Shown piece after piece: positions 4,884 through 36,984 of a DNA stretch of 41,585 nt. Numbering within the stretch: the first letter of the stretch is position 1; every line of letters starts with the position of its first letter. Made by a program: the position numbers and the translations under genes. The notes beneath the pieces are model-generated. The model worked only from the letters and a program-made list of their open reading frames with translations. It had not been told where the DNA came from and searched no databases. Origin of the DNA: a virus; the IMG/VR virus record IMGVR_UViG_3300020156_000053, positions 1-41,585 of that record. One strand, given 5' to 3'.

Positions 4884-5212
4884 GACTCGGCCTCCGGCTC
4901 GAAGAACGACCGCTGCGTCGGCTCAGGGCGCGCGGGCGCGGGCTGCAAGACCACGGCCGGCCGCAGCGGCGGCAGCTCGCGATCGCGCACCGCGGGCCAG
5001 CCGGCCCGGACCTCGGTGAGATCGTCGGCGAGCACCCGGCCCTCGGTGATGATCGTGGTCCGCATGCGCTCGACGGCGACGCACCAGGTCGGGCTCGCGT
5101 AGGCCAGGCGCCGCGGGTCCTCGCGGTCGATCATGCGCAGCAGGCACTCGCCCTGCTCGCGGTACGCGCCGCGCTCGCGGGCGGCGCGGTCGTCGAGGTC
5201 GGGCTGGCTCAT
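4880..5212 (-). CDS. Hypothetical protein, 110 aa
   Basis: The ATG at 5210-5212 overlaps the upstream stop and gives MSQPDLDDRAARERGAYREQ. It is acidic to neutral, with a helical middle and a Pro-rich tail ending RSFFEPEAES. There is no recognised domain. The position directly after the replication gene is where phages often place helicase loaders or partners, but no motif supports that here. Confidence 0.5.
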   Translation of the reverse strand: MSQPDLDDRAARERGAYREQGECLLRMIDREDPRRLAYASPTWCVAVERMRTTIITEGRVLADDLTEVRAGWPAVRDRELPPLRPAVVLQPAPARPEPTQRSFFEPEAES

Positions 5213-6201
5213 GCCGCCCCCTCGGCGGCCGCGCCGCGGTGGTTCTCGACCCATGCGTCGACCAGGGGCGCGAGGTGCGACGGGAGCCGCGCGGGCTGGT
5301 TCGCCTTCCGGCGGACGCCCACGGCGAAGCGCAGGAACCGGCGCGCCTCGTCGGCGCTGCGGCACTGGGCCTGGTGCTGGAACAGACCTACCCACCCCGC
5401 CCGGTACTTCTCGCCGGAGTGGAGCCCGAACTCCTCCACCAGCGCGCCGACGTCGATCCTCCCCCCGGGCGCGGCCCGTGAGGCCGGCGCCCCGGCGGCG
5501 GCGGTGGCGGTCCTACGGTCGGGAGCTCGGCCGCCGCCACCTCCGCCACCCGCGGTCGCGCCTTGAGGGCGCGCCGCGTGAGCGGCCGCCTCTACATGGA
5601 TGGATGGATGGTTGGATGGAGGGCAGCCCGAAACGCTGCCGGCGGCACCATTGTTGGCTGCCGCCGGCACTGCCGCCGGCACGTCTTCGGGCTGCCGCCG
5701 GCACTCCGCGCCTTCTGGAGCCTGCGCGTCCGTGTTCACTTTCTTGCCGGCGGCACCGTTCTTGGATGCCGGCGGCAGGTCCGGATCGTGCCGCCGGCAA
5801 TCGCGATCGCCCTGAGAGGAGTTGCCGGCGGCAGGGTTCTCGGGTGCCGGCGGCACATCGCCTTGCCGGCGGCGATGGGCCTCGACGGCGCGCTGGCGGT
5901 TCCGCTCGGACACTTCGTGGTAGTGCAACTCGCCGTCGAGGTCGTATCCGACGAGCGCGAGGTCGTCGCCGTCCCAGGTGCCCAGCTCGGACTTGATGAG
6001 GTGGTCGACGTCCGCGCGCATGCAGTCGGTGCGCGAGAACCACTGGCGGTCGTTCCAAAGCTTGCACCCGACGATGCGGCCGCGGTTCTCCTGGTCGGCG
6101 CAGTACATGTGCAGCGTCAGCCAGCAGCCGCGCGCAGCCATGTCGGCGTCCTTGAAGACGACGCTGCGGGTGAAGCGGCTCTGGATCTTCGCGTACTGCA
6201 T
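5209..6201 (-). CDS. Replication-initiator-like protein with embedded iterons, 330 aa
   Basis: The ATG at 6199-6201 overlaps the HNH gene's stop (TGATG). The protein has three parts. Residues 1-105 form a conserved-looking domain (MQYAKIQSRFTRSVVF, MYCADQENRGRIVG, WFSRTDCMRADVDHLIKSEL) with the flavour of the N-terminal winged-helix region of phage replication proteins. Residues of about 110-245 are a low-complexity Ala/Gly/Pro linker. Residues 250-330 form a C-terminal helical domain (LVEEFGLHSGEKYRAGWVGL) reminiscent of DnaD/replisome-organiser tails. The linker DNA carries ten copies of an 11-bp element, as in lambda O, where the origin lies inside the initiator gene. The function is inferred from this layout, and no family match is proven. 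Confidence 0.55.
   Translation of the reverse strand: MQYAKIQSRFTRSVVFKDADMAARGCWLTLHMYCADQENRGRIVGCKLWNDRQWFSRTDCMRADVDHLIKSELGTWDGDDLALVGYDLDGELHYHEVSERNRQRAVEAHRRRQGDVPPAPENPAAGNSSQGDRDCRRHDPDLPPASKNGAAGKKVNTDAQAPEGAECRRQPEDVPAAVPAAANNGAAGSVSGCPPSNHPSIHVEAAAHAARPQGATAGGGGGGGRAPDRRTATAAAGAPASRAAPGGRIDVGALVEEFGLHSGEKYRAGWVGLFQHQAQCRSADEARRFLRFAVGVRRKANQPARLPSHLAPLVDAWVENHRGAAAEGAA
5597..5620. repeat. TGGA tetranucleotide tract
   Basis: A short run of TGGA/TGGT units (TGGATGGATGGATGG and continuation) lies just left of the iteron array within the same gene, encoding SNHPSIH on the minus strand. It is one of the less GC-rich patches in the area. It could be simple slippage, or part of an origin unwinding region, which is not shown. 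Confidence 0.6.
5637..5874. repeat. Iteron array, candidate replication origin
   Basis: The 11-mer TGCCGGCGGCA, or its reverse complement TGCCGCCGGCA, occurs nine times exactly. The starts are at 5637, 5659, 5671, 5693, 5745, 5767, 5789, 5823 and 5845. A tenth copy at 5864 differs by one base. Start-to-start distances are 22, 12, 22, 52, 22, 22, 34, 22 and 19 bp, mostly close to whole helical turns. The copies fall in all three reading phases of the overlapping gene, encoding CRR, PAA, AAG or PPA, so the DNA word and not the peptide is what is repeated. A TGGA-rich tract at 5597-5620 adjoins the array. Confidence 0.75.
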
Positions 6202-15380: not shown

Positions 15381-15629
15381 TCAGGTGGCGCGGTTGGCGG
15401 CGATGGCGACGTGCCAGGCCAGCCACAGCAGCGAGAACAGGAACAGCGACAGGCCGGCGAACACGCCGAGCCAGAGCGCGACGACGGCGAGCAGCGGCGG
15501 GCGCGGCTTGACGCTCGGCTCGGGCGCCGTGACCCAGGCGACGAGGATGCGGCCGGTCTGCGGGCACGTCCGGCGGGCGATGCCGCCGATGCGCTCGACG
15601 CGGCGCGTGGTGTCGGTGGCTAGGCTCAC
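15381..15629 (-). CDS. Small membrane protein, 82 aa
   Basis: The GTG at 15627-15629 overlaps the upstream stop. The first 45 residues are soluble (VSLATDTTRRVERIGGIARR, CPQTGRILVAW). Residues of about 47-78 are strongly hydrophobic (LLAVVALWLGVFAGLSLFLF SLLWLAWHVAIAA without charges), enough for one long or two short membrane spans. As the third early gene after the Cro-like gene, it would be made immediately on lytic entry. A role in exclusion or host takeover is conceivable, with no motif to confirm. Confidence 0.55.
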   Translation of the reverse strand: MSLATDTTRRVERIGGIARRTCPQTGRILVAWVTAPEPSVKPRPPLLAVVALWLGVFAGLSLFLFSLLWLAWHVAIAANRAT

Positions 15630-15967
15630 GGCGCGCCCCACGTGCCGGTCCACTCGACGACCTGCGCGGGCACCGGGTCGACGGCCGCCGGCGTCGGTGC
15701 CACGAGGAACCCCCGCTGACGCAGCGCGGCGACGCTCCACCAGGTCGAGCGGCGCGTCGCGCGGTAGATGCACGCGCGCAGCGCCTGGCCGCGGGGGGTG
15801 CGCTCCCGGCGCCAGTCCAGGAGGGTCGAGGTGCCGATGCCCAGGCGGGCGCAGAGGTCGCGGGAGCGGATGATCCCGGCTTCGGGCGCCGGCGCGGCGG
15901 GGCGTCCCGCCTTCGCGGGTGCCAGGCTTCCGCGGAGGCGCGGTGCGGGTACGCCGTCACGCCCCAT
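15626..15967 (-). CDS. HTH DNA-binding protein, AlpA/CII position, 113 aa
   Basis: The ATG at 15965-15967 overlaps the Cro-like gene by 11 bases. After a disordered Pro/Ala N-terminus, residues 32-90 read IIRSRDLCARLGIGTSTLLD, WRRERTPRG, then STWWSVAALRQRGFLV, an AlpA/MerR-like winged HTH. It is second in the leftward operon, the place held by cII or excisionase-type genes in temperate phages. It could control the lysogeny decision, excision or the early promoter. Confidence 0.55.
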   Translation of the reverse strand: MGRDGVPAPRLRGSLAPAKAGRPAAPAPEAGIIRSRDLCARLGIGTSTLLDWRRERTPRGQALRACIYRATRRSTWWSVAALRQRGFLVAPTPAAVDPVPAQVVEWTGTWGAP

Positions 15968-16956: not shown

Positions 16957-18069
16957 ATGGCCTACGTCGAGCCGACCCGCGGCGGGTTCAAGGTGCGCTG
17001 GCGTGAGGGCGGCCGCGGCTCGCGGCTCCTGACGTCGCGCGTCTTTACCAGCCGGGACGCCGCCGACGACTACGCGCTGCGGGTCGCTGAACGCCTGGCG
17101 GCGCGCAGCCGCCTCGGATCGATCGCGCCGCGGCTCGGCCTGGGCGAGGTGCTCGAGCGGTGGCTGCGGTCCCGCCTGGCCGAGCGGCGGGTGACGCCGG
17201 CGGGCGGCGCCGAGATCGTGCGGCTCCTGCGCCACCTCGCGCGCGCGCGCGGCTGGACGTCGACCGGCGACATCACCCCGGCCGAGGTCGACCGCTGGCG
17301 GGGCGACAACGGCGGCCGGAACGCCCGGGTCGGGGCGTACCTCCGGGCCGTCCTGCGGTGGGCCGGGGAGCGGATCGGCCAGGACGTCGACCCGGCGGCG
17401 CTCGTCGCCCTGCGTCCACCCAAGGCGGCGCGGCGGCCGCGCCCTGACCTGCCGGCGGCGCAGCTCGTCGCGACGTGGCGGCGGCAGGCGGCCCGGCAGT
17501 CGCCGCACGCCGAGGCCCTCGTGCACTGTCTCGCGAGCTACGGCTGGCGGCCGGTGACGGCGGCGCGGATGCGCGTCGCCGACGTCGACCTCGCGCGCGG
17601 GACCGTCCGCCTGCGCGGGCTCAAGGGGACCGGCGACGACCTGGTGCATCCCCTGCTCCCCGAGACGGTGCGCCTGCTGCGCGCGCTGTGCGCCGGCCGG
17701 CGCGGCGACGACGCGCTCTTCCTCGACCCGCGCACGGGCCGCGCGTTCCAGGAGCGGGCTCGGCATCGCGGTTCGATCACGGGCTGGTGGCGCGCGACGA
17801 TCGACAGCGGCGTCGGCCGCGGCGTCTACCAGGTGAAGCGCCTGGCCATCTCCAACCTGCTCGCGCTCGGCATCGCGCCGCAGGACGTCGCGCTCTTCAC
17901 CGGCCACCGCACGCTGTCGCAGGTGCTGACGTACGCCCGCACGAACGAGGAACGCGCGCGCGAGGCGCTCCGGACCATGGGTGCACGGAGGGTGCACGCC
18001 GCCGGCTCTGGCCGGGCCAAGCCGCGCCGTCGGAGCGCGAAGCCACGGGAAATGCGCGGCACCGCGTAA
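16957..18069 (+). CDS. int: Tyrosine-recombinase integrase, 370 aa
   Basis: The ATG at 16957 follows GGTGAG. It has an arm-binding-type N-terminus (GGFKVRWREGGRGSR), a core-binding SAM-like domain (about 60-150) and a catalytic domain (about 165-345). The catalytic residues are R198 (GWRPVTAARM), K223 (LKGTG), R295 (YQVKRLAI), H317 (FTGHRT) and the nucleophile Y326 (LTYAR). The His of the usual HxxR box is replaced by Gln292. The 25-residue C-terminus is basic. The gene ends 30 bp before the tRNA-derived core, as expected for an integrase acting on attP. Its 3' end carries one pair of the arm-type repeats. Confidence 0.9.
   Translation: MAYVEPTRGGFKVRWREGGRGSRLLTSRVFTSRDAADDYALRVAERLAARSRLGSIAPRLGLGEVLERWLRSRLAERRVTPAGGAEIVRLLRHLARARGWTSTGDITPAEVDRWRGDNGGRNARVGAYLRAVLRWAGERIGQDVDPAALVALRPPKAARRPRPDLPAAQLVATWRRQAARQSPHAEALVHCLASYGWRPVTAARMRVADVDLARGTVRLRGLKGTGDDLVHPLLPETVRLLRALCAGRRGDDALFLDPRTGRAFQERARHRGSITGWWRATIDSGVGRGVYQVKRLAISNLLALGIAPQDVALFTGHRTLSQVLTYARTNEERAREALRTMGARRVHAAGSGRAKPRRRSAKPREMRGTA
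17979..18000 (+). repeat. Integrase arm-type repeat pair, left of attP core
   Basis: Two direct copies of GGGTGCACG start at 17979 and 17990, an 11-bp period (about one helical turn). The same pair with the same period occurs on the other side of the core at 18200. This pair lies inside the 3' end of the integrase gene, 98 bp from the core. Confidence 0.6.
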
Positions 18070-18098: not shown

Positions 18099-18155
18099 GA
18101 CTCAAAATCCGTCGCCCGCAAGGGCTTGTGGGTTCGACTCCCACCTCGGCTACCA
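18099..18155 (+). other. attP core: 3' part of a tRNA-Leu(CAA) gene
   Basis: From the 3' half of the anticodon arm onward, the sequence is a normal bacterial tRNA-Leu: loop CTCAAAA (anticodon CAA), variable arm GCCCGCAAGGGC, T-arm GTGGG-TTCGACT-CCCAC (18128-18144), acceptor strand CTCGGCT, discriminator A and encoded CCA (18153-18155). The 5' half does not fit: the anticodon stem has a mismatch and neither D-arm nor acceptor 5' strand is present. So this is not a functional tRNA gene. It is the segment a phage carries to rebuild the host tRNA after integration. Confidence 0.85.
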
Positions 18156-18199: not shown

Positions 18200-18220
18200 G
18201 GGTGCACGCAGGGTGCACGG
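18200..18220 (+). repeat. Integrase arm-type repeat pair, right of attP core
   Basis: Direct copies of GGGTGCACG start at 18200 and 18211, again with an 11-bp period and in the same orientation as the left pair. They lie 45 bp beyond the core in the 200-bp non-coding stretch (18070-18269) between the integrase and exonuclease genes. Apart from the core, the hairpin and this pair, I see nothing else in that stretch. Confidence 0.6.
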
Positions 18221-18269
18221 GGCTGAAACCGGCTTTGCGGGGCCGGTGCGACTGGAGTAGGAGCGACGC

Positions 18270-19058
18270 ATGGGCTTCATCCTCGTCCTGACCTTCCTCA
18301 TCGCGCTCGGCAATGCCGTCGTCGGATGGACGCGGTTCCCCGAGCACGAGGCGCCCGTCGCGTCGACCATCACGGCGATCGTCTGCCTGCTCATGCTGGC
18401 GATGCGCGCGACCAGGAAGACCGGCGCGAGTACGGACGGCGGCAAGCGGAAGGTCTCGCCCAAGGTCAAACCCGGCAACGCGAAGAAGGCGCGCAAGGAG
18501 GCGGTCGCCTGGGCGCAGCGCGTCGCCGCCGACCCGGACGGATACGCCATCCTCGACACGGAGACCACCGGCCTCGGCGAGGACGACGAGGTCATCGAGA
18601 TCTCTATCATCGACCCGGAGGGGCGGTTGCTCTACCACGGTCGGGTGCGCCCAGCGAAGCGGCACAAGATCCCGGAGGAGGCGACGGCCATCCACGGAAT
18701 CCGCATGGAAGACCTCGCCGGCGCGCCGACCTGGCCCGAGTGCTGGGAGAAGATCGCCGAGGCCGTCCGCGGCCGCGCGATCATCACCTACAACGCCGAG
18801 TACGACCGGCGCATCATCCGGCAGACCGCGCTGCGCAACGGTGGTGAGGTGGTCGGCGGCGGAACGTGGGACTGCGCCATGCTCGCCTGGGCGGCGTGGG
18901 TTGGCGAGTGGAACGACGATCACGGCGGCTGGCGCTGGCACCGGCTCGACGGCGACCACAGCGCGCTCGGCGACTGCATCGCGACCCTGCGGCGGATCCG
19001 GAAGATGGCGGGCGACAAGCGTGAGGTGCGCTGGCCCGACCTGCCGAGCGCGGCCTAG
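18270..19058 (+). CDS. Membrane-anchored DEDDh (DnaQ-like) 3'-5' exonuclease, 262 aa
   Basis: The ATG at 18270 follows AGGAG at 7 nt. Two hydrophobic spans open the protein (residues 2-20 FILVLTFLIALGNAVVGW and 30-46 VASTITAIVCLLMLAMR). A basic linker follows, then an exonuclease domain with all catalytic residues: D96 and E98 in DTETTG, D179 in NAEYD, and H230..D235 in HSALGDC (DEDDh type). HGI (142-144) matches the family's accessory motif. The nuclease would face the cytoplasm at the inner membrane. The gene is alone, rightward, opposite to the virion operon and beside attP: a cargo (moron) position expressed from a prophage. Degrading incoming DNA is a possible role. Confidence 0.8.
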   Translation: MGFILVLTFLIALGNAVVGWTRFPEHEAPVASTITAIVCLLMLAMRATRKTGASTDGGKRKVSPKVKPGNAKKARKEAVAWAQRVAADPDGYAILDTETTGLGEDDEVIEISIIDPEGRLLYHGRVRPAKRHKIPEEATAIHGIRMEDLAGAPTWPECWEKIAEAVRGRAIITYNAEYDRRIIRQTALRNGGEVVGGGTWDCAMLAWAAWVGEWNDDHGGWRWHRLDGDHSALGDCIATLRRIRKMAGDKREVRWPDLPSAA

Positions 19059-29026: not shown

Positions 29027-29248
29027 TCAGCGCCCCAGGACCAGGCCAGCAGCGAACGCGAGGACGATCGCGGCGATGGTGAGCAGGCGCTCGAACGGGA
29101 TGTTGCGGAGGGTGTGCCGCAGGTACGCCAGCTCGCGCCGCGCCCGGACGAGCCGGATGCAGTTGAGGATCTCCGGGTCCGCGCGCAGCTTCGACGCCTC
29201 CCGGTAGTCGGGGTCGCGCACGTAGTCGGCGGGATCGGGGCCGATCAT
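29027..29248 (-). CDS. Small C-terminally anchored membrane protein, 73 aa
   Basis: The ATG at 29246-29248 overlaps the lipoprotein stop. It is a soluble, charged N-terminus (MIGPDPADYVRDPDYREASK, RARRELAYLRHTL) with one C-terminal membrane span (LLTIAAIVLAFAAGLVLG) ending in Arg. Such a topology fits a holin-, pinholin- or exclusion-type protein, or a tail-anchored accessory. Its placement inside the connector genes is unusual. Confidence 0.55.
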   Translation of the reverse strand: MIGPDPADYVRDPDYREASKLRADPEILNCIRLVRARRELAYLRHTLRNIPFERLLTIAAIVLAFAAGLVLGR

Positions 29249-29910
29249 GCCTTGGCCTCCGGCTGGGGGACGGCGATCCCGGCCGCCTCGGCGGCGGCGC
29301 GGACGTCGGCGGGGAGCCGCGCCAGGTACGCCTCGACCGTCTCCGGCGGCAGCGCCGCGCGCAGCAGGGCGAGGGCCTGGGTGGTGCCGGCGGCGAGCAC
29401 CGCCTGCTTCTTGTCGGCGTCCTTCTGGCGGCGGGTGGCGAAGGCGGCCCAGACACCCTCGGCGATCGCGGCTGCAGCCGGCCCGAAGCCAGGGACGTTC
29501 CGGAGGACGGAGAAGGCGATCGGGGCCAGGGTGAGCGCCGCGGCCCACGCCCACGCCTTCCAGGCACCGCCGCGGGCGTCCGCCTCGGCCTGCTCGCCGG
29601 CCTCGCGGTAGCCGGCCGGGTCGGCGATGATCCGCTCCTGGGTCCAGGTGGCGGCAGGCAGCTCGGCGGCGCCGGCCGTCGCACGGGCGAACGCGGCCGC
29701 GCCGGCGATGATGTCCTCGACCGCCTGGGTCCGCGCCGGGCCGAGGAAGATCGCCAGCGCCTGCATGCCGGCGTCCGCCTCGACGGCGGCCTGCGCCGGC
29801 GGCGCCGGGGGCTGGCGGCCGTCGCCGCAGCCCGTCAGGAACTTCGCCAGGAGGGCCAGGACCAGGAGGGTCAGCAGCGCGGCGCGGCGGTGGTACTGCG
29901 CATCGGTCAT
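29245..29910 (-). CDS. Lipoprotein with a second membrane span, 221 aa
   Basis: The ATG at 29908-29910 opens MTDAQYHRRAALLTLLVLAL, with the lipobox FLTGC at C28, so an N-terminal lipid anchor is likely. A hydrophobic stretch at about 117-136 (WKAWAWAAALTLAPIAFSVL) would give a second membrane contact. The rest is alanine-rich and helical. Phage lipoproteins of this kind include spanins and superinfection-exclusion proteins. The size and extra membrane span do not match a simple o-spanin. The gene lies between connector genes, coupled on both sides. Confidence 0.6.
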   Translation of the reverse strand: MTDAQYHRRAALLTLLVLALLAKFLTGCGDGRQPPAPPAQAAVEADAGMQALAIFLGPARTQAVEDIIAGAAAFARATAGAAELPAATWTQERIIADPAGYREAGEQAEADARGGAWKAWAWAAALTLAPIAFSVLRNVPGFGPAAAAIAEGVWAAFATRRQKDADKKQAVLAAGTTQALALLRAALPPETVEAYLARLPADVRAAAEAAGIAVPQPEAKA

Positions 29911-30407: not shown

Positions 30408-30772
30408 CGGCGCATCTTCTCGGGCGCCATGCGGAGCTGGCCGTTCGGCCGGCTCAGGTGCAGGACCCAGGTCCAGGCGTCCTGGCGTTCGTAGTGCGTG
30501 ACGACCCACTCGACGTCGTCGCGGACGATGCGCGTCTTCGCCGGCAGCTCGCCGAGCAGGTTCTCGCGCAGGACGGTGAGCGTCGCGTCGCCGGTGAACC
30601 CCTGCATGCCGACGCCGGCATCGGCCTCGCCGAGGGCCGTCACCCGGCGGAAGATGCCGACCAGCGACCCCGTCGACCCGTCCGGCAGCCGCAGCTCGAC
30701 CGTCTCGCCGTGCACGTCGTGCAGGCGGGGGCGGGCGGCCGCGTTGAACCGGTCGGCGTGGGCGCTGCTCAC
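30404..30772 (-). CDS. Head-tail joining protein (gpFII-like), 122 aa
   Basis: The GTG at 30770-30772 overlaps the upstream stop as GTGA, which fixes the start. The core HGETVELRLPDGSTGSLVGI, then GDATLTVLRENLLGELPAKT, RIVRDDVEWVVTHYERQDAW matches the beta-barrel connector family typified by lambda gpFII, sometimes listed as a phage head-tail joining domain. These proteins join the capsid portal vertex to the tail. Confidence 0.65.
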   Translation of the reverse strand: MSSAHADRFNAAARPRLHDVHGETVELRLPDGSTGSLVGIFRRVTALGEADAGVGMQGFTGDATLTVLRENLLGELPAKTRIVRDDVEWVVTHYERQDAWTWVLHLSRPNGQLRMAPEKMRR

Positions 30773-31317
30773 GGCGTCGCGCTCCGGGCGTAGGCGGCGA
30801 CGAGCCAGCCCAGGAGGCCGATGATGGCGAGGCCGACGCCGCCGGCGGCGCTGATGACGACCGCGTCGCGGCTCTTCGCCCACAGCGACCGCTCGGTCGC
30901 TGCGTCCGCCTCGAGCTTGGCCTCCTTCCGGCCTTCCTCCCGCGCCCGACGCTCGCGGTCGCTCTCCTCGAGCGTGGCGAGGCGGGCCTGCAGGGCGTCG
31001 AACTGATGCGCCTCGACGGCTCGCAGCCGGCGGTCGTGCTCGGCCCCCTGGTCGATCAGCTCGCCGAGCTGGTGCTCGTGCTTCCGGATGGTGGCGTCGC
31101 CGTCGTTCAGCCGGCCCTCGATCCCGCTGAGGCGCGACTCGATGCCGCGCATGGCTTCCTTGAGGTCGGCGCGCAGCTCGCGGAGGTCGCGCTCCTGGCC
31201 GCGCTTCCACTCGCGGAACCAGACCTCGTCCACGCGCGTAGCCTCGAGCGGCGCTCCGCCGATGGGCTGGCGGAGGGCCTCGTAGGGCCTCGTCGGCGTC
31301 TGATCTTCGTCGGGCAT
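30769..31317 (-). CDS. Coiled-coil protein with C-terminal membrane anchor (XhlA-like topology), 182 aa
   Basis: The ATG at 31315-31317 gives MPDEDQTPTRPYEALRQPIG. Residues of about 45-135 form a long coiled coil (ADLKEAMRGIESRLSGIEGR, ALQARLATLEESDRERRARE). Residues 152-175 are one hydrophobic span (AVVISAAGGVGLAIIGLLGW) near the C-terminus. This layout is that of XhlA-type haemolysin/holin-associated proteins. Here it lies between the capsid decoration and connector genes and not in a recognisable lysis cassette. Confidence 0.6.
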   Translation of the reverse strand: MPDEDQTPTRPYEALRQPIGGAPLEATRVDEVWFREWKRGQERDLRELRADLKEAMRGIESRLSGIEGRLNDGDATIRKHEHQLGELIDQGAEHDRRLRAVEAHQFDALQARLATLEESDRERRAREEGRKEAKLEADAATERSLWAKSRDAVVISAAGGVGLAIIGLLGWLVAAYARSATP

Positions 31318-34051: not shown

Positions 34052-34561
34052 TCAGTCGGCCGCGCCGGCGTCGGCTTCGCCGGCTGCGACGTGGTTCTTG
34101 ATCGCGTTGCGGACCTGGACGCGCGTCCGCTGCGGCAGGTTGTCGAGCACCGCCACGCGGTTCCGGAGGTCGGCCAGCGACGTCGCCGCGGCCACCGCCG
34201 CCTTGAACGACGTGATCCACTCGCGCAGCGTGTTGACCTCGTCGAGGACGAGCAGTGCCTCGGCGCGCAGCAGCAGGAGCGCGCTTTCCTTGGCGCTGTC
34301 GAACGCCGCGGCCGCCTTGGCGCGGATATGGTCCACGCGGTCGGGGAAGGTCGGCTTGGTCGCCATGAACGCGCGCCACGCCTTGATGTGCTGCCGGGTG
34401 TGCGCCCGGTACTCGGCCTCCGTCATGCGCACGGCGCCGGCCGTGACGGGGTCCGTGTCCTCGCGCTCGATGACCTCGGCGGGCCACTCGGCGGGGACGC
34501 CGGCGGGCTTGAGGTTCGCAGCGAGCGAGCCGTACGTGATGACGTCGAGCACGCGCGTCAT
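34052..34561 (-). CDS. Helical hypothetical protein between fibre and capsid genes, 169 aa
   Basis: I place the start at the ATG 34559-34561 because it overlaps the fibre gene's stop. The protein ([20 protein letters not shown]) is largely helical after residue 50 ([60 protein letters not shown]). Proteins right after fibre genes are often fibre chaperones, but this one has no recognised family. Confidence 0.45.
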
Positions 34562-36984
34562 GGCGTGACCACGTTGATGAAGCACTTTTGCGTGGCGCCG
34601 GAGAGGTTCTTCACGCGCGTCGTCGTCGGGGACAGGCGGCGCACGCCGAACTGCGCCGATCCGGCGTAGGCCCCGACCGTCGCCACGTCATAGCGCGTGG
34701 CCTCGTCGTAGTTGATGCTGATGCCGCTGACCGACGGCGATGTGGATGCGTTCGTGGTGTGGAGACCACAGGCGAAGTCGAGATAGGTGTCGCCGCTGCC
34801 GATCGCCAGGTTGGTCAGCCCAGTCTGCACCTCGGCGGCGGTGTTGCCGTTGGCGATGTCCGCGAGTCCGCCAGCGTGCGTCGCCCACGCCGTTCCGTTC
34901 CACTTCTTCCACGTCGCGCGATCGTCGAACGAGACGAGCCACCGGATGCTCCCGCCCGCCGGGGTGGTCTGCGTGATCGTGCAGGAGTTGATTTCGATGA
35001 CCGCGGAGCCGGGAGTTTGCAACGGGATCTGCGCAGCGTCGTCGGTGTGGACGTAGTACCACGTGCTCGTCGGGTATGACGCGCTGTTCTCATAGAAGAA
35101 CAGCTCTCGGATGATCCGCTCCTTGTTGCTGCCCGTGTTGTTGGGCATCGACAGTCGATAGTGAAGATACGACCCTGGCGCAGTGACCGTGTACGACGTG
35201 GTCCCGTTCGTCACGTTCCCCGAGTTGCGGGTGTCGAGATCAGTCCACGCCGACCCATCGTTCGACCCCTGGAGCTTCCAGGCTTCGGGGTAATAGGTCG
35301 ATCCGTACCCGGCGTTGGAAAACGCCTTCATCACGTAGCTGTGGACGGTCTTCGCTGACGCGAAGTCGTATCTCCACCAGATGTCGGTCCCGGTGGGAAG
35401 CATGTTGCTGTCCCACGCCTTGCCTGTCGAAACGTCATCGACTGCCCGGAAGGCGTCATAATCGCCTGACGTGTTGAACCGATGGCTCGCCGACGCCGTT
35501 CCGCTTGTCGCGGACGCGGACGTGTGAACGTCAATGAGTGACACCGGGGAGCCGCCGCCGGTGTTGTGCAGGCGCACGAGCCCGGAATCGAAATCCGTCC
35601 CGTTCGTGGCGTCCTCCTGCACATACTGCGACTCATCGGCGAGGTCGTAGTCGATCGTCGCGTTCGTCAGGCCCTCTTGGTGAGAGTCGATGAAGACGTT
35701 GACCAGGAGTTGCTCGTTCGTGACAGACGGATGCGTGACGTCGACCGTCGCGCCGTTCGCGAGCGTCACCGGCGAGCCCGCGGGCTGGGAGAAGGTGACG
35801 CTCCCACCGCCCGAAGGCGTCGCGCCGACGACGGTGTTGCCGACGCGCTTGAGGAACTCGCCGTCGGCGATGTTGCCGACCGTCAGGTCCATGGGGCCGC
35901 TCGCCTCGGTGATGACGTTGGACGGGCCGGGCGCGCCGTCGGCACCATCCGCCCCAGCCGGCCCCTGTTCCCCCTGCGGGCCCGCTTCGCCGGCGGGACC
36001 CTGTTCGCCCTGCGGACCCTCCGGACCGATGAGCGACGCCAGCCACGCGGCCTCGTCGCCGACGAAGCCCTCGGCGACCGCGACCTCGTAGGCGCTCGCG
36101 CCGTCGTCGCCGGCGGGCCCCGTCTCGCCCTGGGGGCCGGCCGGACCGGTCTCGCCGGCGGGGCCCGCGGGGCCCTCGGCGCCGGGCGCGCCGTCGGCTC
36201 CTGCCGGGCCGGCGGGGCCTTCGGGTCCGGTCTCGCCCTGCGGGCCCTGCGCCCCGGCGGCGCCGTCGTCGCCCTTCGCGGCCAGCAGGTCCCACGCGAC
36301 CGCGGGCGGCGCCTCGCCGGTGGTGGGCGCGGTGGCGACGTAGCTCGACCCCTCGTGCTCGACGGCGTCGCCGACCTCGTAGGCGGTGAGCTCCGACCAG
36401 GCGCCCTGCCAGGTGAAGCCGTCGCCGCTGACGCCCGAGCCGGCGGGTCCCTGCGGGCCGGTCGCGCCCTGCGGCCCGGCCTCGCCCGGCTCGCCGCGGC
36501 GCGCCAGGAGGTCCCACGCCTCCGACGGCGGCGCGTCGTCCTGCGACCGCGCCAGCGCGATCCACGACGAGCCGCGGTGCTCCACGGCGTCGAGCCGCTC
36601 GTACGTCTCCGCGGCGTCCCACGGGCCGCGCCAGCGGATGCTCCGGCCGTCCTCGCCGCGGTCGCCCTTCGCGCCCGTCAGCCCGGCGGGGCCGCGAGGT
36701 CCCACCTCCCCACGAGGCCCGACCTCTCCGGTCAGTCCTCGCGCCCCCGCCGGGCCTTCGGGTCCGCGATCGCCCTGCAGGCCCCTGGGGCCGGCGGGTC
36801 CGCGCTCGCCCTGCGGACCGCGCTCGCCGGCCAAGCCGCGAGGACCGGCGGGGCCGACCGGACCGGGCGTCATCTCACGTGCGAGAGCACGCTGCGCCTT
36901 AGCCTCGGCGGCTCGGGCCACCTCCGCGGCACTGAGCGCGATGGAGGCCGTGGCGTCGAGACGGATCTCGTCCACGTCGTTCAT
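34558..36984 (-). CDS. Collagen-like fibre with carbohydrate-binding and discoidin-type domains, 808 aa
   Basis: The ATG at 36982-36984 overlaps the portal stop. The order is: a helical N-terminus (1-37) for attachment; Gly-X-Y collagen repeats at about 39-112, 163-183, 237-296 and 319-354; two chitin-binding-like modules between them ([20 protein letters not shown], and at 190-235 [20 protein letters not shown]); the linker [20 protein letters not shown]; then, at about 485-633, an F5/8C (discoidin)-like domain ([40 protein letters not shown]); and a beta-rich end. The discoidin region is visibly less GC-rich, which suggests acquisition. Its place between portal and capsid genes suggests a fibre on the head or neck. 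Confidence 0.8.

Follow-up and report, generated by a model that had tools for sequence, protein, structure and literature searches.

A DEDDh exonuclease gene with a predicted membrane anchor beside the probable attP of a phage: a candidate for superinfection exclusion

The locus and its phage genome

The DNA of a temperate phage analysed here (the window, one entire IMG/VR record of 41,585 bases with a G+C content of 71 % and approximately 57 called genes) carries all of its called genes on the minus strand except two, a tyrosine integrase gene (16957–18069; phrog_1, 6.3e-28; Pfam Phage_integrase, 8.2e-06 and 26.1 bits, just below the cut-off of 27.1) and the gene considered here (18270–19058), which has the integrase 201 bp upstream and which, judging by its ORF, its RNase_T and phrog_192 matches, codon statistics and AlphaFold model, is predicted to encode a membrane-anchored DEDDh exonuclease of 262 aa. 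Between these two plus-strand genes lies the 3' half of a tRNA-Leu(CAA), ending in CCA (approximately 18099–18155, plus strand), and a genomic stretch identical to this half at 48 of 51 bases is called as tRNA-Leu(caa). The half is bracketed by two plus-strand 20-bp repeats, putative integrase arm sites, the left one (17979–17998) inside the 3' end of the integrase gene and the right one (18200–18219) identical to it at 19 of 20 positions; from this layout we infer that the tRNA half is probably the core of an attP flanked by its arm sites. Terminase, portal, protease/capsid, tape measure and tail fibre genes occupy 21–41 kb and early genes (a helicase-methyltransferase and a RecE-like exonuclease) 9–14 kb, and the exonuclease gene is placed between the attP and the end of the tail operon. 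The first-pass annotation had described it as opposite in direction to the virion operon and adjoining attP, which agrees with its plus-strand orientation and with the tRNA-Leu half and repeats alongside.

The two ends of the record share no exact repeat of between 10 and 200 bases, and a circular or complete genome is thus not demonstrable from it. With up to three mismatches, the tRNA-Leu half was found in 1 of 246 Actinomycetota and in 0 of 19 records, 0 of 149 Planctomycetota and 0 of 151 Chloroflexota (the phylum names being our reading), and with up to two mismatches in 0 of 119 members of one class. Close relatives of the exonuclease, of the integrase and of the tail fibre were searched for and none was found. 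Elsewhere in the window, the tail-fibre gene (34558–36984) contains long collagen-like repeats, small minus-strand ORFs at 15381–15653, 29027–29248, 29245–29910 and 30769–31317 each carry one strong hydrophobic segment, and a 34-nt element whose ends are CTGCCGCCGGCA-like occurs four times at 5636–5855, inside an ORF called at 5209–6201.

The ORF at 18270–19058 is a real gene. Gene calling on the window gave it a codon score of 103.9 and a GC3 of 0.94, and its first 90 codons show the same pattern of codon-position GC as the rest (0.62/0.51/0.96 versus 0.68/0.51/0.93). The strong ribosome-binding site of its own that had been ascribed to it is present as AGGAG at 18259–18263 (plus strand), 6 nt 5' of the ATG, and no Shine–Dalgarno sequence was seen within the ORF before the internal methionines M42 and M45.

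A common nuclease domain behind a predicted anchor

The DEDDh domain spans aa 92–247 (18543–19010, plus strand); the protein matches Pfam RNase_T (PF00929) at 1.5e-13, no other Pfam domain being found, and phrog_192 at 7.3e-37 over aa 92–250. The D-x-E of motif Exo I, the D of Exo II and the H and D of Exo III are all present, and the residues D96, E98, D179, H230 and D235, earlier taken as the sign of an intact active site, prove to be the same in every aligned protein, 9 in one alignment and 41 in another. Foldseek gave DinG, a DnaQ domain, ExoX and epsilon as the best PDB matches of the window model, and a search of viral folds placed soluble-looking phage epsilon-type proteins (S-CBWM1) first. 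The label ‘DnaQ-type’ is therefore apt for the fold, but a DnaQ in the sense of the polymerase III epsilon subunit appears unlikely, since the protein reaches 46.3 bits against NCBIfam epsilon models with a cut-off of 222.7.

By sequence the nuclease domain is not new, falling within a common and normally soluble family of mobile-element exonucleases, PHROG 192. Relatives of the domain are carried by 53 of 50,697 phage records and by 3,400 of 72,556 plasmid records (2,536 of these typed as conjugative), and a strong hydrophobic segment at either terminus was seen in 0 of 26 annotated relatives, the N-terminus being scored in only 23 of them. The closest described members (phage 186 orf81, VP882 gp46 and SMHB1 gp16) share the same DEDDh domain at 39–47 % identity with all catalytic residues kept; they differ from the window protein in looking soluble and in lying, like the relative in N15, in early or replication regions, and the phage 186 gene is annotated as non-essential. 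With orthologues so placed in phage 186, VP882 and N15, the earlier view of the gene as a candidate for an undescribed defence function is not supported as it stands for the domain. Several plasmid relatives that we read have a conserved, non-hydrophobic N-terminal region ahead of the nuclease domain. A partial PADLOC match of the window protein to the defence candidate PDC-S48 (positions 4–179 of 411) was rejected, with the other PADLOC matches, as evidence of defence: the phage 186 exonuclease gives the same matches, which makes them uninformative.

The N-terminal extension carries two predicted membrane spans, at aa 2–20 (18273–18329, plus strand) and aa 30–49 (18357–18416, plus strand), called from hydropathy (KD19) and from predicted helices. 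The hydrophobic windows peak at a KD19 of 2.24 (aa 1) and of 1.84 (aa 27); when the first 90 aa were shuffled 20,000 times, two separate windows of this strength came up in no more than 3 cases. AlphaFold places helices at 2–20 and 30–49, with a pLDDT of 61–73 per 10-residue block, within a model of mean pLDDT 85.4 in which the exonuclease fold is mostly above 90 and a K/R-rich linker after span 2 is poorly predicted. The second span is the weaker, as is also apparent from its uncorrected, approximate Hessa sum of +1.62. No charges precede span 1 and many K/R residues follow span 2; according to the positive-inside rule a K/R-rich flank stays cytoplasmic, and the nuclease is consequently expected in the cytoplasm. 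The two N-terminal spans of the first-pass annotation are thus upheld as a prediction.

Anchored forms in other lineages and their neighbours

Relatives were gathered from scans of viral and genome contigs in limited samples, and the counts given here concern the matches listed. Hydropathy was read first in 116 of at least 160 loci and then in at least 60 more, the final set comprising at least 257 exonuclease ORFs from at least 266 sources, in at least 134 clusters at 60 % identity. The architecture for which the earlier annotation had proposed a search, membrane spans joined to a DEDDh domain, was found in at least nine further lineages, so that at least 10, the window included, are predicted by hydropathy to have N- or C-terminal spans. 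Two N-terminal spans are seen in the window protein, L090, L193/L273 and L274; one in L062, L277 and, weakly, L095, which was classed as anchored by eye (KD19 1.36); and C-terminal spans in L031 (one), L080 (two) and L096 (two). The eukaryotic DEDDh exonuclease TREX1, which removes stray DNA, is held in the ER membrane by a C-terminal anchor, a position shared by L031, L080 and L096 but not by the window protein with its N-terminal anchor. L108, L053 and VP24-2_Ke were not classed as anchored, since their candidate N-terminal spans precede the likely start or a stop, and C-terminal hydrophobic stretches in L018/L208, L030/L206 (via the L023 cluster) and L230 were dropped from the anchored set as doubtful.

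On a tree of 90 rows, which leaves out 29 named divergent loci, the anchor label needs six changes, at least four of them forced by the well-supported branches alone, and the anchor has therefore been gained or lost several times. The nearest anchored relative of the window protein among the matches listed is L096, whose spans are at the opposite, C-terminal end. It is the predicted anchor, then, that is the unusual and recurrent part, unrelated phages appearing to have repeatedly fixed anchors to the same kind of enzyme. We found no described membrane-anchored DEDDh phage nuclease in the literature searched, with subscription papers mostly outside its reach, and the first-pass annotation likewise knew of no characterized membrane-bound phage enzyme of the DnaQ-like kind.

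The anchored forms mostly cluster in the lysogeny module, often in the order repressor, exonuclease, integrase. In L193, L273, L274, L080 and L095, Pfam matches identify a Cro/CI-type regulator, then the exonuclease, then an integrase or serine recombinase; L277 has a regulator 214 bp upstream (seen by our local detector only) and a recombinase approximately 1.1 kb downstream; L062 has an S24-type repressor 831 bp away; and L090 has a CI-type regulator upstream, and its downstream neighbours are an HSDR_N nuclease and a KAP NTPase of the membrane, the latter matching the defence candidate PDC-S49. Neither L096, where the anchored gene, with an unanchored DEDDh gene next to it, sits between those for terminase and portal, nor L031, a lone reversed gene inside a lambda-like tail operon, has a lysogeny module.

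For counting, a locus scored if a repressor-like regulator stood no further than 1 kb away or an integrase no further than 2 kb; the detectors had first been seeded from anchored loci, which is a bias, and the counts used here take seeds only from outside the anchored loci. Among 100 viral clusters of the matches listed, 8 of the 9 anchored ones had such a neighbour, as did 17 of the 91 soluble ones (p=4.4e-05), a comparison that overstates independence because L095, L273, L274 and L277 form one clade. Among the matches listed from the first scan, which was blind to context, the counts were 5 of 6 anchored versus 10 of 48 soluble with the window included (p=0.0047) and 4 of 5 versus 10 of 48 without it (p=0.014), and for an integrase alone, without the window, 2 of 5 versus 4 of 48 (p=0.093). 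The first-pass annotation had named a part in phage replication, with orthologues inside lytic operons, as what would go against its reading; soluble relatives do occur in early or replication regions and the anchored L096 among virion genes, and most anchored forms are found beside repressors or integrases.

A possible role at DNA entry

Considering these data, we suggest, at a confidence that falls somewhat short of even, that 18270–19058 may be a lysogenic-conversion gene for a membrane-tethered 3'–5' exonuclease that gives superinfection exclusion at entry. Integration would restore the host tRNA-Leu gene, and the exonuclease gene would follow it at a distance of approximately 115 bp, reading the same way and expressed in the lysogen; the hairpin anchor would fix the nuclease to the membrane from the cytoplasmic side, where it could digest the free 3' ends of entering linear DNA, that of other phages and perhaps also conjugating or transforming DNA, the outcome being superinfection exclusion on entry. 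The chromosome and circular plasmids would be spared, having no ends and being out of reach of an enzyme restricted to the membrane, and phages with protected ends would escape, given that an exonuclease needs an end. Consistent with exclusion, the anchored forms recur, are enriched in the lysogeny module and, in L090, stand beside the HSDR_N nuclease and the PDC-S49-matching NTPase; the repeated anchoring in unrelated phages suggests, without proving it, a guard against other invading DNA. Against it are the anchorless relatives in early or replication regions of the named phages, the positions of L096 among virion genes and of L031 in a tail operon, and the fact that no sigma-70-like promoter was found in the window sequence 5' of the gene. 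The original interpretation is partly supported: the predicted anchor, the active site and the attP-side position hold, and the nearest anchored relative, with its place among virion genes, weakens it.

There is a precedent for a membrane nuclease that attacks entering DNA, as the first-pass annotation had envisaged, although its catalytic domain is unrelated. SNIPE is an inner-membrane GIY-YIG nuclease that cuts lambda DNA during injection, and its authors find it toxic to the cell without its span (PMC13190303). The likeness lies in a nuclease held at the inner membrane by one or more N-terminal spans of variable sequence, with DNA at entry as the proposed target (PMC13190303); in the window protein two such spans are predicted, by hydropathy and AlphaFold only. 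SNIPE has GIY-YIG and DUF4041 domains, neither of which was found in the window protein, which has RNase_T only and gives no sign of the tape-measure binding of SNIPE. It is thus not a SNIPE member, having the wrong nuclease and no DUF4041, but it may work alike. Olg1/Sie1 of phage Fc02 is a prophage protein shown to exclude superinfecting phages and, in its authors' account, matching a DEDDh domain (PMC9936078); it differs in being found in the soluble fraction, and the DEDDh assignment is the authors' BLASTp result, compared here by description only (PMC9936078). The actinobacterial and clostridial diDNases are likewise DEDD-superfamily nucleases borne on mobile elements, namely genomic islands, for which the authors suggest a defence role; they are dinucleotide specialists, and the word ‘transmembrane’ is absent from the text (PMC11706625). 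Neither nuclease nor exonuclease occurs as a term in the main text of a superinfection exclusion review (PMC11436027).

The strongest competing reading is an exonuclease of phage replication, recombination or repair whose anchor is incidental and which would, for instance, work at a membrane site to trim the phage's own DNA ends on arrival or during replication. We consider this unlikely, if by no means far-fetched: phrog_192 is named a DNA polymerase exonuclease subunit, its soluble members keep to early or replication regions and L096 to the virion genes, and the window phage also has a RecE-like exonuclease; but the window gene is outside the early operon, opposite to it and adjoining attP, most anchored forms have a repressor or an integrase nearby, annotation marks the phage 186 relative as dispensable, and the protein falls below the polymerase epsilon cut-offs. 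Less probable again is an enzyme whose substrate at the membrane is RNA or short signalling nucleotides, serving as counter-defence or as an off-switch in the manner of the CorA-side DEDD phosphodiesterases of type III CRISPR loci; DEDD proteins near CorA have been proposed as SAM-AMP off-switches (PMC10600005), and the structural matches of the window model include RNase T and ERI/3'hExo folds, but no CorA-like or CRISPR partner was found among the 30 window proteins scanned besides the exonuclease (of approximately 57 genes called), and the best fold matches include the DNA exonucleases DinG, ExoX and epsilon. Finally, that the N-terminal extension is no true anchor, translation beginning later (e.g. 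at M42 or M45) or the hydrophobic stretches failing to insert, would fit the moderate hydropathy of span 2 and the fact that the relative search found no second copy of this N-terminus, but is very improbable given the good Shine–Dalgarno sequence before the ATG at 18270 and none before M42/M45, the constant codon-position GC, the rarity of such windows in shuffles, the predicted helices and the recurrence of anchors among relatives.

Returning to exclusion at entry, we put forward more tentatively still the wider proposal that in temperate phages a common DEDDh exonuclease of mobile elements has become, several times and independently, a membrane guard expressed by the lysogen, often from a repressor–exonuclease–integrase arrangement, which would tell self from non-self by place and free ends and would constitute a second, exonucleolytic kind of entry nuclease beside SNIPE. 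If so, prophages would hold a simple, single-gene means of destroying entering DNA through its location and its ends, not through sequence or modification; one branch of a large nuclease family labelled only as a DNA polymerase exonuclease subunit would gain a function; and the interval between repressor and integrase would be the predicted site of similar genes.

Some of the anchored loci are of interest in their own right. L096 (3969–5825) holds tandem DEDDh exonuclease genes, one with the C-terminal double span. L277 (3314–5833) encodes an 839-aa fusion of an N-terminal span, an FtsK gamma domain, two RNase_T domains and a BRCT domain, between an HTH regulator and a serine recombinase. In L090 (3814–8970), a prophage of 26 % G+C, genes for a CI-type regulator, a small membrane protein, the two-span DEDDh nuclease, the HSDR_N nuclease and the KAP NTPase follow one another in the same direction, possibly as an undescribed defence cassette.
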